NCBI GenBank assembly: GCA_009773455.1
Contig: WSXU01000012.1
Location: forward strand, 46,140-110,139
Reading direction: 5' to 3'
DNA from: Bacteroidota bacterium
GTDB taxonomy: Bacteria; Bacteroidota; Bacteroidia; Bacteroidales; Lentimicrobiaceae
DNA length: 64,000 nt
The position numbers and the translations under genes are program-made. Under the pieces are notes generated by a model. The model was not told the DNA's origin. It searched no databases and saw nothing but the letters and a program-made list of their open reading frames with translations. The stretch's first letter is position 1. Every line of letters starts with the position of its first letter. This document shows, one piece after another, positions 33,326-43,343 of the stretch.

Positions 33326-34222
33326 ATGGTATTCATAGTAATTGGAATTATTGTCCTTTTGGCCGGAGTCGTTCTTGCCAGAACTGATTCACCTGTTCAG
33401 CGGTTTACAGGAACAATCAGGATCGCCGGAATCATTTTACTGGTACTTGGCGTTGTATTTTCAGCGGTTTACCAGATTGAGCCAGGGCAGGTGGGTGTGC
33501 AGAAACTCTTCGGGAAAGTTAACAGCAATACACTCGAGAGTGGCTTAAACATCATCAATCCATTGGTTAAAGTTGTAACCTTCGATATCCGTACGCAGAA
33601 TTATACCATGTCGGGCGTACACGATGAAGGTGACAAGGCCGGCGATGATGCCATCAGGGTGCTTTCCGCCGACGGGCTGGAGGTGATTGTTGATCTTACA
33701 GTGTTATATAAAGTGATTCCTTCTGAGGCTCCCCGCATCCTTCAGGAACTGGGAACCGATTACCGGAACACCATCGTAAGGCCGATCTGCCGGACAAAAA
33801 TCAGGGACAATGCGGTTTATTACGATGCTGTTGCACTGTACTCTTCAAAAAGGGATGAATTCCAGAACAGGATATTCAAGACCATTGAAAGTGATTTCAA
33901 ACAGCGGGGCCTTATCCTCGAGCAATTACTGGTCCGGAATATCACCTTGCCGGAATCTGTAAAGACCACCATTGAATCGAAAATCAATGCCGAGCAGGAA
34001 GCGCAGAAGATGACCTTTGTGTTGCAAAAGGAAAAACAGGAAGCCGAACGCAAACGTGTGGAAGCCCAGGGTATTGCTGATTACCAGAAGATTCTGAGCA
34101 CCGGTCTGAGCGACAAACAACTTCAGTATGAGATGATCAAGGCCATTGCCACTTCTCCGAATGCCAAGCTGATCTTTATGGACAGCAAGAAGCCGGCTTC
34201 GATTATTGTGGATGGGAAGTAA
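33326..34222 (+). CDS. Prohibitin/SPFH-family membrane protein
   Basis: A 298-residue protein with two N-terminal hydrophobic segments (about 1-18 and 31-50), then an SPFH/Band 7 domain (VYQIEPGQVGVQKLFGKV, then FDIRTQNYTMSG, about 50-225) and a helical, Glu/Lys-rich coiled coil (about 215-260: SKINAEQEAQKMTFVLQKEK). Such proteins form large ring assemblies on the membrane and protect or regulate proteases. No FtsH or partner gene is adjacent. The gene ends 68 bases before the first element of the tRNA-Asp island and is probably the left chromosomal neighbour. Confidence 0.9.
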   Translation: MVFIVIGIIVLLAGVVLARTDSPVQRFTGTIRIAGIILLVLGVVFSAVYQIEPGQVGVQKLFGKVNSNTLESGLNIINPLVKVVTFDIRTQNYTMSGVHDEGDKAGDDAIRVLSADGLEVIVDLTVLYKVIPSEAPRILQELGTDYRNTIVRPICRTKIRDNAVYYDAVALYSSKRDEFQNRIFKTIESDFKQRGLILEQLLVRNITLPESVKTTIESKINAEQEAQKMTFVLQKEKQEAERKRVEAQGIADYQKILSTGLSDKQLQYEMIKAIATSPNAKLIFMDSKKPASIIVDGK

Positions 34223-34289
34223 TGAGAAAATTTATTAAAACCTTAACCTGGGAAGGCAGTGTAAATTCTTGAAGTGTTGTGATGAAAAA

Positions 34290-34312
34290 AAAGCCCTCTA
34301 AAAGAGGGCTTT
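34290..34312 (-). terminator. Terminator hairpin of tRNA-remnant unit A
   Basis: A 10-bp stem (34290-34299 with 34303-34312), 3-base loop, and a T run on the minus strand. It follows a decayed tRNA-Asp 3' end read on the minus strand, in the same position as the terminator of the intact tRNA at 43.1 kb. Confidence 0.85.
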
Positions 34313-34314
34313 AA

Positions 34315-34397
34315 GCGGTCTCGTCACCTCGCAGGTGCGACGGGACTCGAACCCGTCTCGTCACCAGTGACGAGATGTCAGGCACGTATTCTGCCAA
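34315..34397 (-). pseudogene. Degenerate tRNA-Asp fragment (unit A)
   Basis: Seventeen bases at 34339-34355 (T arm) are identical to the intact tRNA-Asp at 43143-43159, and 34376-34392 match 43172-43188 at 16 of 17 positions (anticodon 3' flank to D loop). The stretch between them is 20 rather than 12 bases. A CTCGTCACC-containing insert also interrupts the acceptor side, and the 5' acceptor half is absent. It is not a working tRNA. It abuts the stop codon of the GIY-YIG gene. Confidence 0.8.
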
Positions 34398-34658
34398 TTA
34401 TAAATTCATTTGGACTTCGCTTTTCTTGATCATTAGTTCCAGTGATCTTCTGTTCAGACCTTTTATACGCCTTTCTTCAATCAGGGCTTGCTTTTTTGTT
34501 TCAAAGCCCTTGGTGTAAACCAAAACCCATGGTCCTTTACCAGCGGTAAACCTGCTCTTGTCATTATTGTGCTCCCATAAACGGTGCAATGGGTCTTCAG
34601 AAATTCCTTTGTAGTAAACGTCAGATTTAGCGGAATAGATAATATAGGTGTTGTACAT
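34398..34658 (-). CDS. Small GIY-YIG nuclease-domain protein
   Basis: An 86-residue single GIY-YIG domain: YIIYS (5-9) and YYKGIS (15-20) replace the name motif, followed by Arg26 (HRL), His30 (EHN), and the metal-ligand Glu in ALIEERRIKGL (61-62). Family members of this size are predicted DNA nucleases of the UvrC/YhbQ fold; activity is untested. The gene is bracketed by tRNA-Asp 3'-end/terminator units on both sides, and its start codon lies in a GTTGTACAT box like the repeat boxes elsewhere in the island. Confidence 0.9.
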   Translation of the reverse strand: MYNTYIIYSAKSDVYYKGISEDPLHRLWEHNNDKSRFTAGKGPWVLVYTKGFETKKQALIEERRIKGLNRRSLELMIKKSEVQMNL

Positions 34659-34663
34659 AATGA

Positions 34664-34690
34664 AAAAAGCTCCCTCTGGGGGAGCTTTTT
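34664..34690 (-). terminator. Terminator hairpin of tRNA-remnant unit B
   Basis: An 11-bp stem (34664-34674 with 34680-34690) directly after the 16-base tRNA-Asp 3' end. It ends 6 bases ahead of the GIY-YIG start codon, so transcripts entering from the tRNA side would be stopped there. Confidence 0.85.
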
Positions 34691-34706
34691 GCGGTCCGGA
34701 CGGGAC
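34691..34706 (-). other. tRNA-Asp 3'-end copy (attachment-site remnant B)
   Basis: Sixteen bases identical to the 3' end of the intact tRNA-Asp (43135-43150), ending abruptly in unrelated sequence. This is the pattern left when an element inserts in a tRNA 3' end and displaces the original end. Confidence 0.8.
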
Positions 34707-34817
34707 CAGTAAATCAGCATTTGATTGCTTCCATTTTCATCTATATGATTAATAAACAGTTATATAGTAAATATTGCTAAGCAAAAAAAAGCAAACAAAA
34801 GCAGTCAAATGAACTAA

Positions 34818-34839
34818 ATGTTGTACCTAATGTTGTACC
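34818..34839 (+). repeat. Tandem ATGTTGTACC boxes (unit C)
   Basis: Two copies of ATGTTGTACC at 34818-34827 and 34830-34839, 12 bases apart. The same tandem pair occurs at 43058-43078 next to the intact tRNA-Asp. Their place beside each hairpin suggests a protein-binding site of the inserting element. Confidence 0.75.
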
Positions 34840-34848
34840 CATAAAAAG

Positions 34849-34883
34849 AAAACGCCTGTAATTCATTGAATTACAGGCGTTTT
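34849..34883 (-). terminator. Terminator hairpin of tRNA-remnant unit C
   Basis: Perfect 17-bp inverted repeat (34849-34865 with 34867-34883). The core CCTGTAATTCATTGAATTACAGG is shared with the hairpin at 41.7 kb and nearly with that of the intact tRNA-Asp. Confidence 0.8.
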
Positions 34884-34915
34884 ATCTTCTCGGCTGCGAC
34901 CTGAACACGACTTGA
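34884..34915 (-). pseudogene. Decayed tRNA-Asp 3' end (unit C)
   Basis: About 18 of 32 bases match the intact tRNA 3' end, and about 20 of 28 match the copy at 41.7 kb. Most differences are transitions, as expected of an old, unselected copy. Confidence 0.6.
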
Positions 34916-35277
34916 TACTCCAAAGGATATGATTCTTGGCTATCTGATATACTAAAAGCAGTGCTTAAGGACGATTATTTGCAGTTTTGGATGATCTTGA
35001 AAAAGGAAATATTCAAATCTCCGCAGGTGATATGAAACATTGTAAGTTATAAAGAACTATGTGTAAGAATATTTCAGAAAATAAAATGGATCTCTGGAGA
35101 ACAATTCCAATCATCATATCGTATATTTGATTCCAAATCATTAAAGAAGTACTCACATAGGCTTATAAGTCTAAAATGCAATAACTTATATTTACAATAG
35201 GTCAATTCTGAGTAGAAATTCTCTTAATTGTAAACAATAGTATAGCTAATAGATCTGTATGGCAAGTAATTATTAAT

Positions 35278-36261
35278 ATGGATTTTAAATTATTCATTTT
35301 ATCATTAGTCATCAGTCAAACTGTCTTTTCTCAAAACGGTTCGCTTACTATAACTTCTGTCTCACAACGTGCAGATGGAAGCGGAATTGTAGATGTATAT
35401 TTTGACCTGAGTGGACCGGAAAACAATTATTATATTTCTCTGGAAGCCAGTTTTGATGCCGGAAGCACCTACACACCTATAGATCATTCCGGAACAAGCG
35501 GAGATTTAGGGCCAATCAGCGCGGGATCCAACAAGCATCTGATCTGGAATGGGTTCCAAAGCACTCCGAATATGTATAGCACTCAAACGAAGTTAAAAGT
35601 AACTGCGGGCACGATTCCTACTTACATTACTGATATTGATGGTAATGTTTATCAAACAGTCATGATTGGACAGCAATTATGGATGAAAGAAAACCTGAAA
35701 ACCACCAGATACCGGAATGGGACTAGCCTTGTTTATCCGGGTAATAATAACACAACCTGGCAAAATAATACAACTGGAGCCTATGCCTGGTATAATAATG
35801 ACATTTCCTGGAAAAGTTCCTATGGTGCATTATACAATTGGTTTGCGGCAACCAATTCAAACGGATTATGTCCGACGGGATGGCATGTCCCAAGTAGTAG
35901 TGAATGGGTTCAATTAATCAATTATATAGGTGGTTCCAGCGGGGGTGGCAACAAACTCAAGTCTTGCAGACAAGATAATTCACCTTTAGGAGGAAATTGT
36001 AATACATCAATTCATCCTTACTGGACTTCCAATTTAACTCATTTCGGAACTGATGATTACGGGTTTTCTGCATTTCCTGGAGGCGAAAGGATGGGGACAG
36101 GAAGTTTCATTTATTTTGGGTTATCCGGAATATGGTGGACTTCAACTCAAAACAATTCTTCAACAGCATGGTACCGTGACTTGGGATATAATTATGGTGT
36201 AGTAGGCTCTTATTACTATATTAAATCTGCTGGTCACAGTGTTCGGTGCGTCAAGGATTGA
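35278..36261 (+). CDS. Secreted FISUMP-domain protein
   Basis: A 327-residue exported protein (signal peptide about 1-18, cut near VFSQ). Residues about 22-112 form a beta-sandwich-like module (GSLTITSVSQRADGSGIVDV, ending NKHLIWNGF). Residues about 118-327 form the FISUMP (Fibrobacter major paralogous) domain with its signatures IGQQLWMKENLKTTRYRNGT, GALYNWFA, LCPTGWHVPSSSEW and a final SVRCVKD. The same two-module tail recurs in the gene at 40066. There is no sorting tail and no lipobox. The base composition is A+T-richer than the flanking core genes. Confidence 0.88.
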   Translation: MDFKLFILSLVISQTVFSQNGSLTITSVSQRADGSGIVDVYFDLSGPENNYYISLEASFDAGSTYTPIDHSGTSGDLGPISAGSNKHLIWNGFQSTPNMYSTQTKLKVTAGTIPTYITDIDGNVYQTVMIGQQLWMKENLKTTRYRNGTSLVYPGNNNTTWQNNTTGAYAWYNNDISWKSSYGALYNWFAATNSNGLCPTGWHVPSSSEWVQLINYIGGSSGGGNKLKSCRQDNSPLGGNCNTSIHPYWTSNLTHFGTDDYGFSAFPGGERMGTGSFIYFGLSGIWWTSTQNNSSTAWYRDLGYNYGVVGSYYYIKSAGHSVRCVKD

Positions 36262-36298
36262 GCTATTACATTTTAAATAGTTTGAAAATCAACTAATT

Positions 36299-39200
36299 AT
36301 GAAGGTAAATCAATTTAGTATTTCGTTACTGGTGTTTGTCTTGTTCTTGCAGCCATTAAAAGCTCAACAGATCATTGGATATTCGGGGTTGTTTACATTT
36401 AACACTAAGTATCGGATTACCGGGACAATCACAAATGCCAACACAGGCTTACCCATTCAGGGGGCACAGGTAACGACTATTAATTATACCTCATTACCAA
36501 GCACATCAACAGGGTATTACAATCTTTTTGTGCCGTATGGATATGGTTATCAAATTAACATTGTGGCGGCAGGTTATGTCACCAAACAGGTGACAAATGT
36601 TAACGTCAGTATAAGTAACCCGGTCACCATCCTCAATATATCACTCCTGCCTTCTTCAGGTACATGTGGAATTACAACAATTAATCCCAACCCTAATCCT
36701 GCTTTATCGAAAGTGCAACAAGGCGGCGTATTTCACCGGTATTATAAGATCTTTGATGAATTGACAGGTAATCCGCTACCTCTTATACCAGTAAGTGTTA
36801 CAGGCGTTGGGTTTTCACTTACATATTATTCTGATTCGAAAGGAATCGTAGATATCTCTATCAACAGCAGTAATGTCAGCGGTGGTCAGCCAGGTAATCA
36901 GGCTAGCTTTTCGGTTGTATCAGTAAATAATGTAAGTATAGCTAATCCAATAGTTTTTTCATGTGTTGTTGAAAACCAGGAGTATGGAAAGTACTGGGAC
37001 ACTTATACGTTTGGCAAAATCGGTTTGTCATTTGTGGAAGTATCTAAACGATATGGCTCGTCGTTATCACTTATCGGCTATAACCCTGTAAATTCAACTG
37101 CTGAAAGTTTTGAAATAAAGCGACAGAAAGAAGATGATGCAGGATTCGAGTTTTCAGTTGGAGTTGCTGCAGGAGTACAATGTGGGAATGCTATCGCAGG
37201 TGGAGAGGCAAAAACGGGTTTTGGTGGAAATGTAGCAGTGAAAACTGAAGACCAGTATCGTTTCAACAGGAGCCAGTCAGCTACTGATTATGAAGCAATA
37301 GGAAGATATATTGTTGTGACTGATGGTATATTTGATTTCATGGATGAAACACTGTATCGAGTGCTTCAAAAATGTGAGTCAGTTTTTGCCGGCCAAAATA
37401 ATCTTCAATTGGCGTACCAAGGCGATAAGAAATCATTTGAAGTGGGCGTATTTGGTACCGCCGAGGCGGGCATTGGTATTGGCGACTCTCAGGATATAGG
37501 AATTGCTGTTGCCGGGAAATTAGGCCCCGAGGCCAATATTGCATTTGAAAGATACTATAATAAAGCTGCAAATGAGAAGGAAAGATCTATTGAATTTAGT
37601 GGAAAATTTGCTGCTTCTGGAAATGCAGGATTGAATTTTGGGATGTCGCCTGATGATCTGATAAATGGTGAACTTGGAGCTAATGTGATGTTCTGGAACA
37701 GGGAATATGAAAGAGGAATTAGGCTTGCTTATATTCATGATATGACTCAACCCTGGTACACAATCAAAGAGATTCGATTTACAATAATAAAACGAAATGT
37801 GCATTCACGGACAGGCTGGGAAGAAGAATTAACCTATTTCATCTCCGGAGCCGATCTACTTGATGCTATTCGAAATATTTCTTCAATCAACATGGTTTCG
37901 CAATTGGACAATTTACCTGATGGTACTGTAATGGAAGTAACAACCAGTGTATTCAAAGAAATTACCGAAGCAATTTTTAATACTGCATATTACATGCAAA
38001 CAGATGCTCAAGGTGAGGCCTCAATTAATTATAAAACAGAACGAACCGATATTCAGAATCAAGGCAGTTTTGAAATAAGCATTGATGGGCAATTTCTTGC
38101 TAGCGGATTTAAAGCAACTATAGGAGGTGGTTCAGGTTTTGAACAAGGTTCATTTTATACTAAGGAAAATGGAAAATGGATTTGGGGAAAGCATTTCAAA
38201 TTACAGGAGAATAGTGCCATGGGTACTTTTAATGATAGTTACCAGATTTTTATGCAGGATTTGACAAATGATCTACCCGCATGGCTGAAAGCTGCAATAG
38301 GCTTTGTAGATTATATTACTTTCTGGAACAAAAATACAACTACTCATTACATTGGAGATGGGGGATCTTATATTGAAATTGATGAGAATGCAATTCCAGA
38401 AGGTCTTGATAGCATCAATTGCTTATCATGGAGCTGGTACGGTGATTCTCCTGCAAGAACACGCAGTATGTTGCCACTGAATCAGAAGTCTGTAAACGAT
38501 ATTTTCAGAAGCCGTGCACAAAAAAGTTTTGCGATGGAATACGGGTACGGGGGATTTTATCAGCTTGAGCCACTTGGCGCCCAGTTGAACGATACATGCT
38601 GGATGACAATAGTTTACAATGATGCTGACGTTGTTGATATTGATGAATCTACTTTGGGAATGTACCGTGAAGACAAAGAAAATCATAAATGGGTATACAT
38701 TGGTGGAATAATAGATACTTTGAATAATAAAGTGACGGCACCGTTTACAAAACTGGATTTATTTACATTGGCACCAGCAGCACCTTATGGAGAGTTTAGC
38801 TTGCATGCCAATCCTGATAGTTTATATTCTGATGGGATTTCGACCACTATAATAACCAGTGACACAATCTTCAAAAACAACCATGCTCCAGTTGAAGATG
38901 GTGAGCTTTATACCGTTGTTAGTACTTCTGGAGAAATAACTACTACTGATGCAGATCCGATTCTCGAAGGAAAACAAGTGTTAACACAAAATCACATGAT
39001 TGAGTTTATTCTTAAATCTGATGATGTAAGTGGGAATGCCATTGTTTCAGCATTTAGTGTCCATGGAAGTTCAAAGGCACGAATTGAAATATTATTTTAC
39101 GACACCCTGGCTCCGGCCCCACCGGTAATAACTGATGTAATACCAGGTGACGCAAATGCAGAGCTGATCTGGCAGCAAAGTTCCGAACCGGACATTGCCG

Positions 39201-39991
39201 GTTACACAATTTATTACGACACCGATACTATACTGCCTTTGGAAGGTATCCATACGGTTTATGGTGAACCATCTCCTATCAATGTCGGAGTATCCACATT
39301 GAGGCAAGTGAATGGTCTGCTCAATGATTCAACGTATTATTTTGCTTTATCAGCTATTGATCTTTCAGGCAATGAAAGTGAGCTTTCTGAGTTTTTACCT
39401 GTAATTCCTATTGAGAATAAGAAAATCCAGATTACCTTATTTTTCGAGGGGTTGTTTAATCAAACAATGAATACTATGAATAAAGTGTCTAATGAATATG
39501 GTCCGATCTTCTCCGACAGCATTGCCGATGTCTATAAGCTGGAATTACGTGATCCATTAAACATAGATAGTATTGTATTTACATCTAATAACAGGGTAAG
39601 TGTCAATGGGATATCCAATTTTGAAGTGCCCGGAAGGTATACAGGCAGTTATTATCTTGTTGTTAAACATCGTAATAGCATTGAAACCTGGAGTTCAATG
39701 CCAGTTTCTTTAGATGCTGACATGATTTATTATGATCTCACTGATGAGATTACCAAAGCATACGGAAATAATCTGAAACCGTCTGGCAGCAGATATTTGA
39801 TTTTTGGAGGTGATGTCAACCAGGATGGTTTTGTTGACACTGGTGATATGAGCCCGGTTGATAATGATGTATTATTATTCTCAACAGGATACCTTGTTAC
39901 TGACATTAACGGTGATGGGACTGTAGATACTGCAGATATTTCTATTCTTGATAACAATTCATTTGGATTTGTGTCTAAGATAACGCCGTAA
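36299..39991 (+). CDS. Large secreted multidomain protein with dockerin-like tail
   Basis: A 1,230-residue exported protein (signal peptide cut near LKAQQ, residue 22). Residues about 38-115 are a carboxypeptidase-regulatory-like repeat (YRITGTITNANTGLPIQGAQ). A second similar domain lies near 148-215. Residues 280-700 show no recognised fold. A fibronectin type III domain lies at about 935-1040 (PAPPVITDVIPGDANAELIW). The end carries two dockerin type I/EF-hand-like loops (GDVNQDGFVDTGDMS and DINGDGTVDTADIS). Probably a cell-surface or secreted calcium-binding protein; the partner is unknown. It sits between the two FISUMP genes, 37 bases after the first. Confidence 0.82.
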   Translation: MKVNQFSISLLVFVLFLQPLKAQQIIGYSGLFTFNTKYRITGTITNANTGLPIQGAQVTTINYTSLPSTSTGYYNLFVPYGYGYQINIVAAGYVTKQVTNVNVSISNPVTILNISLLPSSGTCGITTINPNPNPALSKVQQGGVFHRYYKIFDELTGNPLPLIPVSVTGVGFSLTYYSDSKGIVDISINSSNVSGGQPGNQASFSVVSVNNVSIANPIVFSCVVENQEYGKYWDTYTFGKIGLSFVEVSKRYGSSLSLIGYNPVNSTAESFEIKRQKEDDAGFEFSVGVAAGVQCGNAIAGGEAKTGFGGNVAVKTEDQYRFNRSQSATDYEAIGRYIVVTDGIFDFMDETLYRVLQKCESVFAGQNNLQLAYQGDKKSFEVGVFGTAEAGIGIGDSQDIGIAVAGKLGPEANIAFERYYNKAANEKERSIEFSGKFAASGNAGLNFGMSPDDLINGELGANVMFWNREYERGIRLAYIHDMTQPWYTIKEIRFTIIKRNVHSRTGWEEELTYFISGADLLDAIRNISSINMVSQLDNLPDGTVMEVTTSVFKEITEAIFNTAYYMQTDAQGEASINYKTERTDIQNQGSFEISIDGQFLASGFKATIGGGSGFEQGSFYTKENGKWIWGKHFKLQENSAMGTFNDSYQIFMQDLTNDLPAWLKAAIGFVDYITFWNKNTTTHYIGDGGSYIEIDENAIPEGLDSINCLSWSWYGDSPARTRSMLPLNQKSVNDIFRSRAQKSFAMEYGYGGFYQLEPLGAQLNDTCWMTIVYNDADVVDIDESTLGMYREDKENHKWVYIGGIIDTLNNKVTAPFTKLDLFTLAPAAPYGEFSLHANPDSLYSDGISTTIITSDTIFKNNHAPVEDGELYTVVSTSGEITTTDADPILEGKQVLTQNHMIEFILKSDDVSGNAIVSAFSVHGSSKARIEILFYDTLAPAPPVITDVIPGDANAELIWQQSSEPDIAGYTIYYDTDTILPLEGIHTVYGEPSPINVGVSTLRQVNGLLNDSTYYFALSAIDLSGNESELSEFLPVIPIENKKIQITLFFEGLFNQTMNTMNKVSNEYGPIFSDSIADVYKLELRDPLNIDSIVFTSNNRVSVNGISNFEVPGRYTGSYYLVVKHRNSIETWSSMPVSLDADMIYYDLTDEITKAYGNNLKPSGSRYLIFGGDVNQDGFVDTGDMSPVDNDVLLFSTGYLVTDINGDGTVDTADISILDNNSFGFVSKITP

Positions 39992-40065
39992 GATGGTTGA
40001 AAATCACCAAAAAGTCAATTGACTTTAGAACCTTTTTGAGTTAACAATAGCCTTAATTATAAAAA

Positions 40066-41625
40066 ATGAGAATATTAGTTTTACTTGCCTTTATCCAGTG
40101 TACTGGTATAGTATTTTGTCAGATACCAACAAATGGATTGGTAGCATACTATCCTTTTAACGGAAATGCTGCCGATGAAAGTGGAAATGGGGTAAATGGC
40201 ACTGTTAATGGAGCCACAATTTCAAGTGACAGATTTGGTAATAGTTCGAGTGCCTACTCCTTTAATGGCATTGACAATAACATCCTTTTCAATTCATTTC
40301 CGATGTCAATTACAGACAATTGGACTATTTCAGCCTGGATTTCTCCTGAAATGATGACACAAACACATATGGCCATTGAATTGGGTTACGATCCGGGTTA
40401 TATGCCGGCAGATGGATATGGAATTTGCATTCAGGAAGGTTGTTTATTTGCTTTGTATTGCGGAATCAGTTTATACAATTGGAATTATTGTTTACAAATA
40501 AACAGCTGGCACCACATTGTAATGAGGCGGGATAATGGGATTCTAACATATACAGTTGATAATATCCTTCTTGGTATGACTATCAATACATCGCCAACCC
40601 CTCCAACCGCCTTTTACATTGGTTCTGGAACCGGTATCCGATTTTTTAAAGGGAAGATAGATGATGTGCGGATTTATAACCGGGCTTTGATGCTGGATGA
40701 AATCGAATTACTTTACTATGAAGCGCTACCTGCCGGAGAACTGACAATAACGCATGTGCAGCAACGAACTGATGGAAGTGGATTGGTTGATATTTATTAT
40801 AATCTAAGCGGCCAGGGTATCTATTTTGTAAACATGGAGGCATCATTTAATGAAGGGGAAACATTTTTTCCGGTCAATTCATCATTTATTACCGGTGAGG
40901 TAGGGCCGATCTATCCAGGAAACAATAAGCATATTATATGGGATGGTAAAATGAGTAACCCTGGTATTTATAGTAGTCAATCGAAACTATTGTTAAGTGC
41001 GGTCAGGGACCCGTCGCCGGTTATGGATATTGATGGGAATATTTACCAAACCGTCCTGATTGGTCAACAGCTATGGATGGCTGAGAATTTAAAAACAACC
41101 AGATACAGTAATGGTATAAATATTGAATATCCCGGAGCTGATAATTCGGCATGGTCGAATAATTTGACTGGGGCTTATGCCTGGTATGACAATGATATTT
41201 CCTGGAAGGATTCCTATGGTGCTTTATATAATTGGTACGCTGTAAACAATTCCAACAGTATCTGTCCAAGTGGCTGGCATGTTCCAACTGAAGCCGAATG
41301 GAACTCCTTATCAAATTATCTTGGTGGTGTTGATATTGCTGGTGGAAAGTTGAAAAGCACGCAAACATATCCTGATTTTCATCCGAGATGGGATTCGCCT
41401 AATACTGATGCAACAAATGAAAGTGGCTTTTCATCACTTCCAGGAGGTAATCGAGATGCTGGAGGAACATATGGTAGCATTGGTCAGACAAGTCATTATT
41501 GGTCTTCTACCGAAGAAAGAAATGCAAATGCATGGCTTTGGGATTTAGGCTATATATATGGCTATTTCTATAATACTTTTTATGATAAGCGAGGTGGATT
41601 ATCGGTGCGGTGCCTCAAGGATTAG
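40066..41625 (+). CDS. Secreted LamG + FISUMP protein
   Basis: A 519-residue exported protein (signal peptide about 1-19, IVFCQ). Residues about 22-215 are a concanavalin-like LamG domain (GLVAYYPFNGNAADESGNGV, and GKIDDVRIYNRALMLDEIE), a carbohydrate- or protein-binding fold. Residues about 222-312 repeat the module of the 35.3 kb protein (GELTITHVQQRTDGSGLVDI). Residues about 318-519 are the FISUMP domain (IGQQLWMAENLKTTRYSNGI, GALYNWYA, ICPSGWHVPTEAEW). The two FISUMP proteins are clearly paralogues that gained or lost the LamG part. Confidence 0.88.
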   Translation: MRILVLLAFIQCTGIVFCQIPTNGLVAYYPFNGNAADESGNGVNGTVNGATISSDRFGNSSSAYSFNGIDNNILFNSFPMSITDNWTISAWISPEMMTQTHMAIELGYDPGYMPADGYGICIQEGCLFALYCGISLYNWNYCLQINSWHHIVMRRDNGILTYTVDNILLGMTINTSPTPPTAFYIGSGTGIRFFKGKIDDVRIYNRALMLDEIELLYYEALPAGELTITHVQQRTDGSGLVDIYYNLSGQGIYFVNMEASFNEGETFFPVNSSFITGEVGPIYPGNNKHIIWDGKMSNPGIYSSQSKLLLSAVRDPSPVMDIDGNIYQTVLIGQQLWMAENLKTTRYSNGINIEYPGADNSAWSNNLTGAYAWYDNDISWKDSYGALYNWYAVNNSNSICPSGWHVPTEAEWNSLSNYLGGVDIAGGKLKSTQTYPDFHPRWDSPNTDATNESGFSSLPGGNRDAGGTYGSIGQTSHYWSSTEERNANAWLWDLGYIYGYFYNTFYDKRGGLSVRCLKD

Positions 41626-41664
41626 GCGTTTCAGTTATAAGAAAACGATAAGAAAGCCGGATCA

Positions 41665-41674
41665 ATGTTTTACC
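41665..41674 (+). repeat. Single degenerate ATGTTGTACC-like box (unit D)
   Basis: ATGTTTTACC matches the repeat box at 9 of 10 positions and stands in the same place relative to its hairpin as the boxes of unit C and of the intact tRNA. Confidence 0.5.
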
Positions 41675-41680
41675 AGTCAA

Positions 41681-41721
41681 AAGAAAGCACCTGTAATTCA
41701 TTGAATTACAGGTGCTTTCTT
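41681..41721 (-). terminator. Terminator hairpin of tRNA-remnant unit D
   Basis: Perfect 20-bp inverted repeat (41681-41700 with 41702-41721). Its core is identical to unit C. Confidence 0.8.
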
Positions 41722-41755
41722 TTCTCAGTTGCGGTCTGGACATGGCTTTGGTGCG
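41720..41755 (-). pseudogene. Decayed tRNA-Asp 3' end (unit D)
   Basis: Aligned with the intact tRNA 3' flank, 16 of the first 20 and about 22 of 35 bases agree, with GCGGTCTGGAC for GCGGTCCGGAC. Too short and altered to form a tRNA. Confidence 0.7.
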
Positions 41756-41883
41756 CACAACGCCCGCTTTATAGCCTTAATGGATCACTATCTGCCGGAG
41801 TGGAAGCTGCTGAAAAGGGAATTGAATAAATTGCCGGTAAGTCATGTGGAGTGGGGGTATTGAATTGTTAACTTTTAGTAATT

Positions 41884-42432
41884 ATGGATATTAGAAATTT
41901 TATCAACCTAAAATCAGATGAGCTAATAAAGTTATCTAATGATTTAAAATCAGTAACTACAGAGTGGCAGGTGCCAATTATTATTGATTGTTCAAATATT
42001 AGTCAACAAAACATTCCAGCTTTATTGGCTAAGCATCCAAACTTAGTTGCTGGAAGGAAATACCCTGGAATTTACTATTTTAAAATTCTTAATGACAAAA
42101 TTGATAACAATAATGTTATTGAAGCATTAAAACATTATAAAAAACTTAGGGAACGGTTATGTCCTAAAATTGAAAATAAAAGGAGCAAGGACTCAAAATT
42201 TCTATATTGTGGTAGTAAGAGGGTTGATTTATTTAGTCGATTTCTTCAGCATTTGGGCTTGGGTCACAAATATACTTATTCGTTACAATTATTACATTGG
42301 GCAAAAGACCTTGGCCTCCTGATTGAATTTAATTACTGTTTCCTGGAAAAGGAGCAAATGCACTTAACAGAGTTGATTGAAGCATCTTTGACTATGGCAA
42401 TCAAACCTTTAGTCGGAAAATTAGTAAAGTAA
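41884..42432 (+). CDS. Divergent GIY-YIG nuclease-like protein with N-terminal extension
   Basis: A 182-residue protein that I assign to the GIY-YIG fold by motif order: PGIYYF (61-66), FLYCGS (106-111, YCG for YIG), Arg119 and His123 in SRFLQHLG, and a late Glu with KPLVGK (about 166-179), where families usually show a Glu then a Pro-Asn. About 40 residues separate the first two motifs, much more than in the small GIY-YIG gene of this island. The first 55 residues are a separate N-terminal part. It lies between tRNA remnant D and the intact tRNA-Asp. Activity and partner are unknown. Confidence 0.6.
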   Translation: MDIRNFINLKSDELIKLSNDLKSVTTEWQVPIIIDCSNISQQNIPALLAKHPNLVAGRKYPGIYYFKILNDKIDNNNVIEALKHYKKLRERLCPKIENKRSKDSKFLYCGSKRVDLFSRFLQHLGLGHKYTYSLQLLHWAKDLGLLIEFNYCFLEKEQMHLTELIEASLTMAIKPLVGKLVK

Positions 42433-42581
42433 TACAGATCACTGCTTTATATCATTAATGGACTGGCTATCTGCCGGAATTGAAGTATTTATTTAAAGCG
42501 GTAAAAGTTTTAATCGCTGGTGAGTTATTCTGATTAGGTATTATTTGACTCTGATTGCTCCAGTTCTGTCCTTTTATCGGC

Positions 42582-42932
42582 TCATTTTCTTTTTCTATCC
42601 CTTAGAATATATTTATCAGCTTGTTGACTTATTTCATAAGTAGTCATGCGCCGGCTGCCTGCAATCCATTTCAATAAATCATCTTTGCGAAAGTACAATC
42701 GTTTTCCTCGTTTGTAATAAGGGATGGAACGCTTACTAACTAAACCGTAAATAGTTGGAACCGACAAAAAGAGAATTTCTGCAGTTTTCTTAATATCCAA
42801 TAATTCGTTTTGATCAGATTGCGGTGCGGAGGTTACTGAATAATGTCGTTCAATCGCTTTATCAACTGCTTCATTGATGATGGGGGTCAACATTTCGCGT
42901 AACAAGGTTTCAAGTGAATTGGTTACTTCCAT
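42582..42932 (-). CDS. Excisionase-like helix-turn-helix protein
   Basis: A 116-residue DNA-binding protein. The C-terminal half is a MerR/Xis-type winged helix of the HTH_17 kind: LLDIKKTAEILFLSVPTIYG, then RSIPYYKRGKRLYFRKDDLL, where the wing ends in the usual LxxW (LLKWIAG). The N-terminal 40 residues are helical and acidic, perhaps for oligomerisation. It is the first gene downstream of the intact tRNA-Asp and its ATGTTGTACC boxes, which is where an excisionase or directionality factor would be. The matching integrase is absent. Confidence 0.85.
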   Translation of the reverse strand: MEVTNSLETLLREMLTPIINEAVDKAIERHYSVTSAPQSDQNELLDIKKTAEILFLSVPTIYGLVSKRSIPYYKRGKRLYFRKDDLLKWIAGSRRMTTYEISQQADKYILRDRKRK

Positions 42933-43057
42933 AGCAAATATTATTTCCTGGAAATGGATAAATTATATAAGTAATAATAACGAATTACCTAATAATTCTA
43001 TTTTAACTTATCAGACTATTAAATGCCTGATACTAAAAAAATGAAGTGATTTTGTAA

Positions 43058-43078
43058 ATGTTGTACCTATGTTGTACC
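43058..43078 (+). repeat. Tandem ATGTTGTACC boxes beside tRNA-Asp
   Basis: ATGTTGTACC at 43058-43067 and again at 43069-43078, 11 bases apart. Together with the adjacent hairpin and tRNA 3' end it forms a direct repeat of about 90 bases with 34816-34905. Confidence 0.75.
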
Positions 43079-43088
43079 TGTAAAAAGG

Positions 43089-43121
43089 AAAAGCCTGTAA
43101 TTGGTTAAATTACAGGCTTTT
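43089..43121 (-). terminator. Terminator of tRNA-Asp
   Basis: Perfect 14-bp stem (43089-43102 with 43108-43121) with a 5-base loop and T-rich sequence after it on the minus strand, 12 bases beyond the encoded CCA end of the tRNA. Confidence 0.88.
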
Positions 43122-43132
43122 ATTTTCCTCAT

Positions 43133-43209
43133 TGGCGGTCCGGACGGGACTCGAACCCGCGACCCCGTGCGTGACAGGCACGTATTCTAACCAACTGAAC
43201 TACCGGACC
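43133..43209 (-). tRNA. tRNA-Asp (anticodon GTC)
   Basis: Complete 77-base cloverleaf including an encoded CCA end. Acceptor stem GGTCCGG/CCGGACC; D arm GTTCAGTTGGTTAGAAT; anticodon loop CTGTCAC with anticodon GTC; T arm CGGGTTCGAGTCCCG. Preceded by an excellent promoter and followed by a hairpin terminator, so it is transcribed alone. Four partial copies of its 3' end lie downstream in the island, showing that it is an insertion target. Confidence 0.97.
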
Positions 43210-43241
43210 AAATTTCGAAGAACTATTTCCGAACGAGGCTG

Positions 43242-43272
43242 CAAAGATAAGCACTTTTCTTAATTCTGCAAA
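43242..43272 (-). promoter_or_regulatory. Bacteroidota-type promoter of tRNA-Asp
   Basis: On the minus strand TTTG (43272-43269), then exactly 19 bases, then TATCTTTG (43249-43242). This fits the TTTG/TAnnTTTG consensus with ideal spacing, 33 bases ahead of the mature 5' end. Confidence 0.8.
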
Positions 43273-43343
43273 TCGGGTTGAATTTTTTTTATTTTATTTA
43301 ATTTCTGCTCTTATTGAGATGAGAATGGTGAGTTTTCAATTGA

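Follow-up and report, generated by a model that had tools for sequence, protein, structure and literature searches.

In the window, i.e. the whole stretch of 64,000 nucleotides of Bacteroidota DNA that was analysed, two layers of insertion have probably accumulated at one tRNA-Asp gene: an older, seemingly selfish unit built around a stand-alone GIY-YIG nuclease gene and a younger integrative island (Table 1). Units with the architecture of the older layer, including a duplicated terminator, recur at tRNA genes across Bacteroidota and are present in some relatives and absent from others.

Table 1. Features of the tRNA-Asp locus (positions in the window) and the basis of their assignment.
Feature	Position	Strand	Basis
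tRNA-Asp(GTC), intact, target gene	43133..43209	-	ARAGORN; Rfam RF00005 67.9 bits
Proximal core repeat inside intact tRNA-Asp, island boundary	43135..43150	-	repeat family D3; alignment vs shuffles
Island module 1: hairpin (arms 43084-43102/43108-43126) and two ATGTTGTACC direct repeats	43056..43128	-	repeat search; sequence reading
HTH_17 excisionase-type protein	42582..42932	-	PF12728 1.3e-12; TIGR01764 'excise' 2.9e-7; phrog_66 2e-7
182-aa protein (phrog_19050)	41884..42432	+	phrog match; no meaningful Pfam match
Island module 2, decayed	41664..41748	-	80% identity to 34829 copy; 0/500 shuffles for whole module
Cargo: LamG and Fib_succ_major secreted protein	40066..41625	+	Pfam
Cargo: 1230-aa CarboxypepD_reg/dockerin protein	36299..39991	+	Pfam
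Cargo: Fib_succ_major secreted protein	35278..36261	+	Pfam
Island module 3, decayed	34829..34913	-	repeat search; 0/500 shuffles for whole module
Distal core repeat, 16-bp tRNA-Asp 3' end	34691..34706	-	16/16 identity, 0/500 shuffles as high
Terminator ahead of GIY-YIG gene	34664..34690	-	comparison with relatives; fold
Stand-alone GIY-YIG nuclease gene, 86 aa	34398..34658	-	PF01541 E 6.5e-14; AF2 pLDDT 96.1; Foldseek UPF0213 E 1.7e-4, Slx1 E 2e-3
Palindrome TCTCGTCACCAGTGACGAGA, replacing anticodon arm of pseudo-tRNA	34356..34375	.	pattern search of own genome
Pseudo-tRNA-Asp, D-arm to 3' end, abutting GIY-YIG stop codon	34315..34397	-	local alignment
Distal terminator hairpin of GIY-YIG unit	34286..34313	-	read from sequence; hairpin in fold of 34283-34402

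The intact tRNA-Asp described in an earlier note on this DNA was confirmed by ARAGORN and Rfam. The A+T-richer content of the adjoining block was likewise borne out, with a G+C content of 34-40% at 35-43 kb compared to 41-52% in the remaining 1-kb steps of the window. The same note reported four copies of the tRNA 3'-end, each followed by a hairpin. Two of these, 34315-34397 and 34691-34706, are beyond chance: the stretches 34283-34402 and 34663-34712 align to tRNA-Asp above all 500 shuffles, and the latter copy matches the tRNA-Asp 3'-end in 16/16 positions, this 16-mer occurring twice in the window, the tRNA itself counted. The tRNA parts of 34884-34915 and 41720-41755 are not beyond chance, as 79/500 and 61/500 shuffles, respectively, score as high. 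These stretches are parts of longer copies of an island module consisting of a direct repeat, a hairpin and a short tRNA end (72-80% identity over 85 nt at 34829, 41664 and 43068), which as a whole is beyond chance (0/500 shuffles). Moreover, the hairpins are not of one sort but of two unrelated kinds, the AAGCTCCC/AAGCCCTC-type around the GIY-YIG gene and CCTGTAATT..AATTACAGG in the island module. Repeated insertion at one tRNA gene was rightly proposed, but two mechanisms, that of the older GIY-YIG unit and that of the island proper, were merged.

The older insertion (34.28-34.71 kb) comprises the GIY-YIG gene, followed by the pseudo-tRNA-Asp and a second terminator. Local alignment of the pseudo-tRNA (34283-34402) scored 54.8, the best of 500 shuffles reaching 30.1; Rfam makes no tRNA call at 34315-34397. 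This copy had been described as decayed mainly by transitions, but a palindrome stands where the anticodon arm was. The terminator ahead of the nuclease gene resembles that behind tRNA-Asp in the related genomes G001, G007, G011 and G013, and is read as the original tRNA-Asp terminator. The genome of the window contains seven short GIY-YIG genes, four of which are located at most 260 bp behind a same-strand tRNA (Pro, Arg, Val, Pro(GGG)); a fifth, the window copy, has been displaced from its tRNA, and two are without a tRNA. A group I intron harboring a GIY-YIG gene was rejected, as the intact tRNA is kept and no intron family matched up to E 10 in 34200-43300.

The 86-aa protein scores 52.4 bits with PF01541 (cut-off 22.6) and thus belongs to the GIY-YIG superfamily. 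Its GIY-YIG domain covers residues 1-71, and the AF2 model consists of one compact domain; a separate DNA-binding domain as in the homing endonucleases I-TevI and Seg is absent. Among 47 aligned proteins Y5, Y16, R26 and H30 are invariant, and G18 and E62 are conserved in at least 90%. The PDB sequence search at E 0.1 returned 1zg2 and 1ywl as the only matches, and the fold search placed 1zg2 first (E 1.7e-4), followed by Slx1 chains (E 2e-3 to 8e-3), with UvrC and I-TevI at E about 2. By its dN/dS ratios the nuclease is under purifying selection: ten of 17 pairs compared over the first 225 nt had a finite dS (near 2 in two of them) and gave ratios of 0.05-0.13 in nine pairs and 0.27 in one, the other seven being saturated and yielding no ratio. 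For the window's own gene, dS was saturated in both pairs tried.

The younger island spans ~8.4 kb (34707-43134) and is bounded by two 16-base copies of the tRNA-Asp 3'-end, the same repeat (16/16 bp) standing at both ends as expected of an integrative element. Recombination would have taken place at the final 16 bp of the tRNA-Asp gene, and the arrival of the island would have pushed the GIY-YIG unit 8.4 kb away from the tRNA. The island carries stacked hairpin/direct-repeat modules, an excisionase-type gene and secreted-protein cargo, and now shows no integrase of its own: a Pfam search with five of its proteins revealed none, and the integrases of loci L227 and L228, used as queries, had no match in the window at E 1e-4. 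A tyrosine integrase is encoded within 1.5 kb in 12 of the 30 loci of the excisionase-type protein family. A GIY...YxG-like appearance of the 182-aa protein, noted by eye, is not backed by any meaningful Pfam match. The island hairpin is read as an element-borne module, since the tRNA-Asp of G014 is followed by the same module, on a contig ending before any integrase could show. The hairpin that had been thought to travel with the tRNA end is of two origins, being probably the host's own terminator, duplicated, in the GIY-YIG unit and a module of the element in the island. Two kinds of element can accordingly stack on one tRNA and pass for one.

The gene order of the older layer was found at about 15 tRNA isotypes; two of the ARAGORN calls, Phe (L160) and Gln (L184), are doubtful. 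Relatives were collected with a query made from five proteins only (Asp and Lys types); of the 112 that were confirmed, the best 80 make up the named loci. Sixty-seven of them have at least 600 bp upstream; a same-strand tRNA is located within 600 bp upstream in 57, downstream only in three, and is lacking in seven, a count that describes the subgroup found by this query and not all GIY-YIG genes. In these 57/67 loci the nuclease gene stands at its presumed target, as expected of a homing endonuclease. A tRNA facing the gene on the opposite strand was seen in 0/80 relatives, and the distant flanks of GIY loci contain 8 tRNAs in 172 kb (0.028 per 600 bp). When loci were sampled across the phylum by PF01541 score only (L068-L097), 9/30 adjoined a tRNA (eight upstream, one downstream). 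The pooled set, which omits ten long UvrC/exonuclease-type loci, L056 and L078 (the place of L114) and re-finds L118, L142 and L172, gave 86/138 (81 upstream, five downstream). Behind the gene, the tRNA 3' part is clearly duplicated in 65 of the 74 testable loci, usually beside a palindrome; in a comparison with shuffles, 8/54 testable loci were without a remnant above the shuffles. As to possible carriers, tblastn with the window protein (E 1e-3) retrieved nothing from 50,697 phage records, and only two distant matches were obtained among 72,556 plasmid records.

In 38 alignments, picked among loci with a clear remnant, the palindrome cleanly replaces the anticodon arm in 23 and is located in the T-arm region in seven. 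An inverted repeat (stem of at least 6) is present just ahead of the duplicate in 58/65 loci compared to 12/60 control stretches 400 bp on. In this comparison the duplicate search query starts at tRNA position 44, so that earlier starts would be missed, and the arm palindrome does not in every locus rank as the best inverted repeat. Tested singly, the inverted repeat outscores every one of 60 shuffles of the stretch in which it lies in no more than 23/65 loci. The type TCCCGA..TCGGGA yielded 65 matches in 152 kb around GIY loci versus 6 in 326 kb of flanks, a ~24-fold higher density; four control palindromes combined gave four and three matches, respectively. Palindrome type is tied more tightly to the nuclease clade than tRNA identity is: on a nuclease tree of 58 rows it requires six changes (minimum 4, shuffled mean 20.9), and tRNA isotype 24. 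These rows were labelled by eye and represent 56 of the 65 clear-duplicate loci together with L004 and L114; nine loci without a clear palindrome were left out (L045, L061, L063, L076, L084, L090, L112, L115, L131), and a crude check pattern failed to re-find five labels (L005, L129, L140, L195, L114). The isotype is also clustered (35 changes versus a shuffled mean of 62.7; 0/200 as low) on a quick-method tree of 86 rows and 75 columns with many open forks, which could in part reflect vertical inheritance.

These observations render it highly improbable that REP-like palindromes, unrelated to the nuclease, were inserted by chance in a dead tRNA copy. Some GIY-YIG arrays of another subgroup (L116) are indeed located among REP-like palindromes, but palindromes of the TCCCGA type concentrate near GIY loci, the type follows the nuclease clade, and the pattern TCTCGTCA-N(1-14)-TGACGAGA was found at a single place in the 4.8-Mb genome of the window. 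A REP/RAYT system was rejected on the same scan, limited to the window's own palindrome in its own genome, as the palindrome is not dispersed there. The association with the nuclease likewise bears on the view that integrase-driven islands account for everything, all repeats being attachment-site scars of tyrosine recombinases and the GIY-YIG gene incidental cargo. The island layer itself fits this view with its 16-bp core, its excisionase-type gene and the integrase neighbours of its relatives, and the genus has tyrosine integrases at tRNA-Val (G005, G013). We nevertheless deem it quite unlikely, given the tRNA ahead of the GIY-YIG gene in 57/67 relatives, the clade-bound palindromes, and duplicates whose start follows an anticodon- or T-arm palindrome and lacks a clean integrase core.

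The terminators behind the tRNA and behind the pseudo-tRNA, compared in the 32 loci where both ends could be placed, are at least 0.9 identical in 15 and less than 0.6 identical in 10; between loci of the same isotype the mean identity is 0.47. The pairs below 0.6 fit age but also other origins, and gene conversion between the repeats could be a source of the within-locus identity. Among the matches listed, tandem arrays of near-identical units occur in G190 (317-bp spacing) and G134 (345-bp spacing). Such arrays would be expected if the tRNA 3' part was amplified via slippage or RecA-mediated tandem duplication and the arrays by unequal crossing-over, the nuclease being kept for another job, e.g. 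Slx1-like repair of branched DNA. The nearest folds, UPF0213 and Slx1 instead of I-TevI, agree with this scenario, and the available part of a report on phage T6 provides a precedent, as tRNA+segB units were amplified there through homologous recombination (PMC13096335). Still, it appears unlikely, because duplication by itself yields neither a palindrome nor a nuclease gene and one order is maintained at about 15 isotypes with clade-specific palindromes.

Related genomes without the 34-43 kb block, which the earlier note had called for, exist. In G001, the order is carbonic anhydrase-like gene, GIY-YIG gene, tRNA-Asp and AddB-like gene, without the island and without a prohibitin-like gene at this place; the GIY-YIG unit is in the window order, directly behind tRNA-Asp. 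In G007, tRNA-Asp is followed by a terminator and the carbonic anhydrase-like gene, and this 'empty' site could reflect loss of the unit instead of its never having been gained. The carbonic anhydrase-like gene is presumed to be such from the look of its sequence; the names prohibitin-like and AddB-like are based on PF01145 and PF12705 as well as on the earlier note. The empty site predicted there (prohibitin-like gene, tRNA-Asp, AddB-like gene) has its order in G017, but there the prohibitin-like gene is cut and an assembly gap (NN) directly follows the tRNA. In G006, G012 and G013 the tRNA+GIY-YIG piece is present and inverted relative to its neighbours.

The comparison of tRNA alleles also speaks to a natural cleave-and-rescue system, in which the unit brings a recoded, cut-resistant tRNA and a nuclease destroying the old allele. 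This idea was prompted by tRNA-Pro(TGG), of which the genus has two very different alleles, the unit-bearing G000, G006, G011 and G018 all sharing one type. However, G012 carries that type without the unit, and pseudo-tRNA scars, read by eye, are located beside the other type in G001, G005 and G013. Moreover, tRNA-Val has the same allele whether the unit is present or not, and tRNA-Asp is identical in G001 (with the unit) and G016 (without). With tRNA-Pro ambiguous and no recoded copy at Val and Asp, we rejected this explanation as very unlikely.

Taken together, we read the GIY-YIG unit as a site-specific selfish nuclease unit that invades tRNA genes by cut-and-repair in a homing-like manner. 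The minimal unit would consist of the stand-alone nuclease gene and the clade-specific palindrome, ~400 bases in total, and would have entered the tRNA gene leaving it whole. Beyond the nuclease gene, the insertion would leave the tRNA 3' duplicate with a host-like terminator, joined to the palindrome in the place of the anticodon arm or T-arm. The nuclease would break the tRNA gene near the site equivalent to the palindrome, and the unit would be copied in by repair; in the dead copy, the palindrome would mark where the break occurred, and may block renewed cutting or use. DNA-level recognition is favoured over a guide RNA, because some palindromes are complementary to the very centre (e.g. 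TCCCGATGCATCGGGA) and L114 shows a mirror arrangement.

tRNA genes are preferred insertion sites for mobile DNA, which generally enters them through integrases or retroelements. We tentatively raise the possibility that the units constitute an unrecognised class of autonomous mobile element which, at ~400 bp, would be among the smallest known: a bare GIY-YIG domain of 80-100 aa, devoid of a DNA-binding domain or recombinase, that invades tRNA genes yet leaves them working. The specificity of such an element might then depend on the carried palindrome/pseudo-tRNA as well as on the protein: either a cruciform formed in the DNA would be recognised by its structure, in the manner of Slx1, or the palindrome/pseudo-tRNA would encode a structured RNA next to the nuclease gene. 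A search of the open-licence literature returned no report of a tRNA-splitting GIY-YIG unit. If true, a phylum-wide, nuclease-only unit that keeps the tRNA functional and marks its junction by a palindrome would represent a further route into tRNA genes, explain the tRNA-adjacent subgroup of stand-alone GIY-YIG genes in Bacteroidota, and offer a small, testable system for the spread of selfish nucleases through essential genes.

Among known systems, SegB of T-even phages is a larger protein than the window's nuclease. Like the latter, it is encoded by a free-standing GIY-YIG gene, that of a homing endonuclease, beside tRNA genes of many isotypes; it cuts inside tRNA genes, and recombination of the 5' part of the tRNA with the 3'-end of segB produces tandem tRNA+segB repeats (PMC13096335, PMC2988022). 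Unlike the window unit, SegB belongs to a phage setting, and the available parts of both reports mention no pseudo-tRNA with a clade-specific palindrome (PMC13096335, PMC2988022). The younger layer resembles tRNA-integrating tyrosine-recombinase islands and IMEs in its core repeat of the tRNA 3'-end, excisionase-type gene, cargo and stacking, but differs from them in its three hairpin/direct-repeat modules and in that no integrase was found in 34707-43134. UPF0213 (BH0048, PDB 1zg2) and Slx1, the eukaryotic branched-DNA nuclease with its partner Slx4, are nearest to the window nuclease by fold, 1zg2 and 1ywl being the only PDB matches by sequence at E 0.1; we know of no tRNA-splitting arrangement for either. 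Fungal mitochondrial endonuclease units (e.g. in atp6 of Allomyces) supply the host gene with a replacement 3'-end and displace the old one downstream, to our knowledge without a junction palindrome. These units share with that of the window the order of a nuclease gene followed by the displaced old host 3'-end, although their hosts are protein-coding genes.

The earlier note had placed an intact tRNA-Asp in the window, which lies in a genome assembly of 4.8 Mb, and this gene was borne out. Of the four partial copies of the tRNA that had been claimed as well, two exceed chance, namely the pseudo-tRNA match, which scores 54.8 versus 30.1 for the best of 500 shuffles, and the 16-mer that matches the tRNA-Asp 3′-end beyond chance in a shuffle test. 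The other two turned out to be parts of a repeated 85-nt module comprising a direct repeat, a hairpin and a short tRNA end; in 500 shuffles each, their tRNA portion alone was equalled 79 and 61 times, respectively, and the whole module never.

Features at the tRNA-Asp locus of the window
Feature	Position	Strand	Remark
Pseudo-tRNA match	34283-34402		matches tRNA-Asp
GIY-YIG gene	34398-34658	minus	encodes an 86-aa GIY-YIG domain
16-mer (tRNA-Asp 3′-end)	34691-34706		
Island	34707-43134		between two 16-bp repeats; lower G+C
85-nt module, three copies	34829; 41664; 43068		
Stretches common to two Fib_succ_major genes	35627-35926; 41021-41320		300 nt, 71% identity
YgjP-like stretches	41749-41863; 42460-42490		
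Intact tRNA-Asp	43133-43209		

The older of two insertion layers is a GIY-YIG unit. Read on the minus strand, the window carries the 16-bp tRNA 3′-end, a terminator, the GIY-YIG gene, a pseudo-tRNA-Asp that begins near the D-arm, and a second terminator. We observed the identical order in the relative G001 directly behind the intact tRNA-Asp, there without the island and flanked by an AddB-like gene on one side and a carbonic anhydrase-like gene on the other. A GIY-YIG gene is likewise present at tRNA-Asp in G006, G011, G012, G013 and G018, and in G006, G012 and G013 the piece comprising tRNA-Asp and the nuclease gene is inverted relative to the neighbouring genes. In G005, what follows the tRNA is a terminator plus a few bases similar to the beginning of the gene, with nothing more of the unit, and in G014 the island module takes the place of the GIY-YIG gene. 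The gene is absent from the 430 nt inspected behind tRNA-Asp in G007, G009 and G016, and the locus is broken by contig ends or a gap in G003, G010 and G017. Behind the tRNA-Asp of G007 lies AAAGCTCCTCAAAAGGGAGCTTTTTT, the same stretch that is found in both terminators around the G001 unit; G007 could be a never-occupied site or a site that lost the unit. From these comparisons, the best reading of the 16-mer of the window is that it formed the end of the original tRNA and is still joined to its terminator and the GIY-YIG gene; the arrival of the island in between would have severed it from the rest of tRNA-Asp.

This younger layer is an integrative island that contains an excisionase-type gene, secreted-protein cargo and the three modules. 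No integrase was found in it, and the island is therefore a relic or dependent on the integrase of another element. Among the 30 HTH_17-family loci fetched, including the window's own, which has none, a tyrosine integrase is located within 1.5 kb in 12 (tblastn, E 1e-4). In G014 (G014:C60, L314), the same module follows tRNA-Asp with its own HTH_17 gene between it and a second module 1262 bp away, and the contig stops within the second unit. Tyrosine integrases also lie beside tRNA-Val in G005 and G013 (L227, L228), where a gene with Arm-DNA-bind_5 and SAM_5 domains is located directly downstream of the tRNA, preceded by a direct repeat, GTAAACCAGG, that is analogous to ATGTTGTACC in the window's island. 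A stretch is common to both Fib_succ_major genes within the island, and by eye two further short stretches resemble the end of a YgjP-type metalloprotease gene, perhaps the remains of a lost gene.

The linkage to tRNA genes is a trait of one GIY-YIG subgroup. The window's own genome contains nine GIY-YIG matches, seven of them short genes: four behind tRNA-Pro, tRNA-Arg, tRNA-Val and tRNA-Pro(GGG), one being the window copy, and two without a tRNA. A second copy of the 3′-part of the same tRNA follows the gene in all three of the four tRNA-linked loci that no contig end interrupts. At the start of contig G000:C62 (L008), the GIY-YIG gene behind tRNA-Pro(GGG) is truncated by the contig end, and such duplications may break assemblies. 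A search of genome contigs with five unit-type proteins confirmed 112 relatives, of which the 80 best, mostly from Bacteroidota, were used; a few host MAG records are titled Melioribacter, Ignavibacteria, Neomarinimicrobiota, Jacksonbacteria or Syntrophobacterales. For 67 of these 80, the sequence upstream of the gene extends over at least 600 bp; a same-strand tRNA lies within 600 bp upstream in 57 of them, only downstream in three and not at all in seven, compared with a background of 0.028 tRNA per 600 bp in far flanks; an opposite-strand tRNA within 600 bp occurs in none of the 80. Behind the gene, the remnant of the upstream tRNA scores above 200 shuffles in 46 of the 54 loci that could be tested. 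A neighbouring tRNA was found in 9 of 30 phylum-sample GIY loci, in 86 of the 138 pooled loci, and in none of ten control loci of the long UvrC/exonuclease type (2.2-3.2 kb each). A second stand-alone GIY-YIG group lies between REP-like palindromes of the GGATTCCTGCC.. type with no tRNA in the locus (L116 in G124:C86, also L001).

Inspection by eye of 38 alignments, all from loci with a clear remnant, revealed that the decay of the tRNA copy behind the nuclease gene is not random. Often the nuclease gene extends into the 5′-part of this copy and has its stop codon in the copied D-arm. A palindrome cleanly replaces the anticodon arm in 23 of the 38 (TCCCG...CGGGA in many clades, TCTCGTC..GACGAGA in the Asp clade) and lies in the T-arm region in seven, in most of these as ATGCTGAC..GTCAGCAT; in six it has another position between the D-arm and the anticodon arm or the alignment shows a mixed picture, and two are unclear. 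A clear 3′-duplicate of the tRNA exists in 65 of 74 loci, its similarity beginning at tRNA position 44-46 in 25 of the 65, with a query that itself started at 44. An inverted repeat with a stem of at least 6 directly precedes this duplicate in 58 of the 65 loci (mean stem 7.2, shuffled mean 4.4), as against 12 of 60 control stretches taken 400 bp beyond; at single loci, it exceeds all 60 shuffles of its own stretch in only 23 of 65. In the 152 kb surrounding the 138 GIY loci, the pattern TCCCGA..TCGGGA has 65 matches, versus 6 in 326 kb of flanks, and four control palindromes together yielded 4 and 3 matches, respectively. The pattern of the window's palindrome occurs at a single place in its genome and is therefore no dispersed repeat there. 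In L114 the arrangement is mirrored: three units of 5′-tRNA part, palindrome and gene lie ahead of an intact tRNA-Pro.

Nuclease, palindrome and target are associated with one another. When 86 nuclease sequences were trimmed to 74 residues, that is, before most of the tRNA overlap, the tRNA isotype required 35 changes on their tree versus a shuffled mean of 62.7 (0 of 200 shuffles as low). On a 58-sequence tree, palindrome type requires 6 changes, where 4 is the minimum and 20.9 the shuffled mean; isotype requires 24. The sequences with the Asp-type palindrome and those with the T-arm type (eight of each) are both set apart from the rest by a single branch, with support of 91 and 94, respectively. 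The T-arm group was found at Met, Gly, His, Ser, Pro and Asp tRNAs, a range to be expected if the T-loop, which is common to all tRNAs, is recognised.

In 15 of 32 loci, the 32 nt behind the tRNA share an identity of at least 0.9 with those behind the pseudo-tRNA; in 10 the identity is below 0.6, and between different loci of one isotype it averages 0.47. At Asp and Val, relatives without the GIY gene have terminators of the respective local kind. On these grounds, the duplicated terminator piece looks like the host's own. We infer that the tRNA gene would be broken near the anticodon arm or the T-loop, and that repair would use a sister copy as template for the tRNA end before copying the unit, giving the observed arrangement. 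Against this route counts that the presence of the unit makes no difference to the sequence of the intact tRNA-Val, and thus the unit does not protect the tRNA through a sequence change. Arrays of units, spaced by 317 bp and 345 bp, can arise from repeated entry or unequal recombination. At the tRNA-Ser/tRNA-Pro locus of the genus (L198-L214), tRNA-Pro(TGG) occurs in two alleles, of 74 and 76 nt, that differ strongly, with scars of GIY-YIG units beside both; in G007 (L208), it is shortly followed by a regular array with a repeat of about 46 nt and differing spacers, CRISPR-like by eye.

Codon comparisons indicate that the GIY-YIG protein is kept functional. Among 17 pairs, dS was finite in 10 and saturated in seven; dN/dS was 0.05-0.13 in nine of the 10 and 0.27 in one, and both pairs with the window's gene were saturated (pN 0.19-0.20 versus pS 0.82-0.95). 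Catalytic-type residues are invariant or almost so among the aligned proteins. Among the open-licence papers listed by the literature searches, preprints excluded, none reports this arrangement in bacteria judging by title and start of abstract, and an earlier report may exist elsewhere. The predicted structure (pLDDT 96.1), which has no DNA-binding domain outside the GIY-YIG fold, is closest in fold to the UPF0213 protein BH0048 (E 1.7e-4), followed by Slx1 (E 2e-3 to 8e-3), with UvrC and I-TevI far behind (E about 2). A comparable system is the free-standing GIY-YIG endonuclease SegB of T-even phages (PMC2988022, PMC13096335); according to PMC13096335, the phage T6 enzyme cleaves within tRNA genes and has a motif, RAWTSGAAC, that in our reading corresponds to the T-loop in reverse complement.
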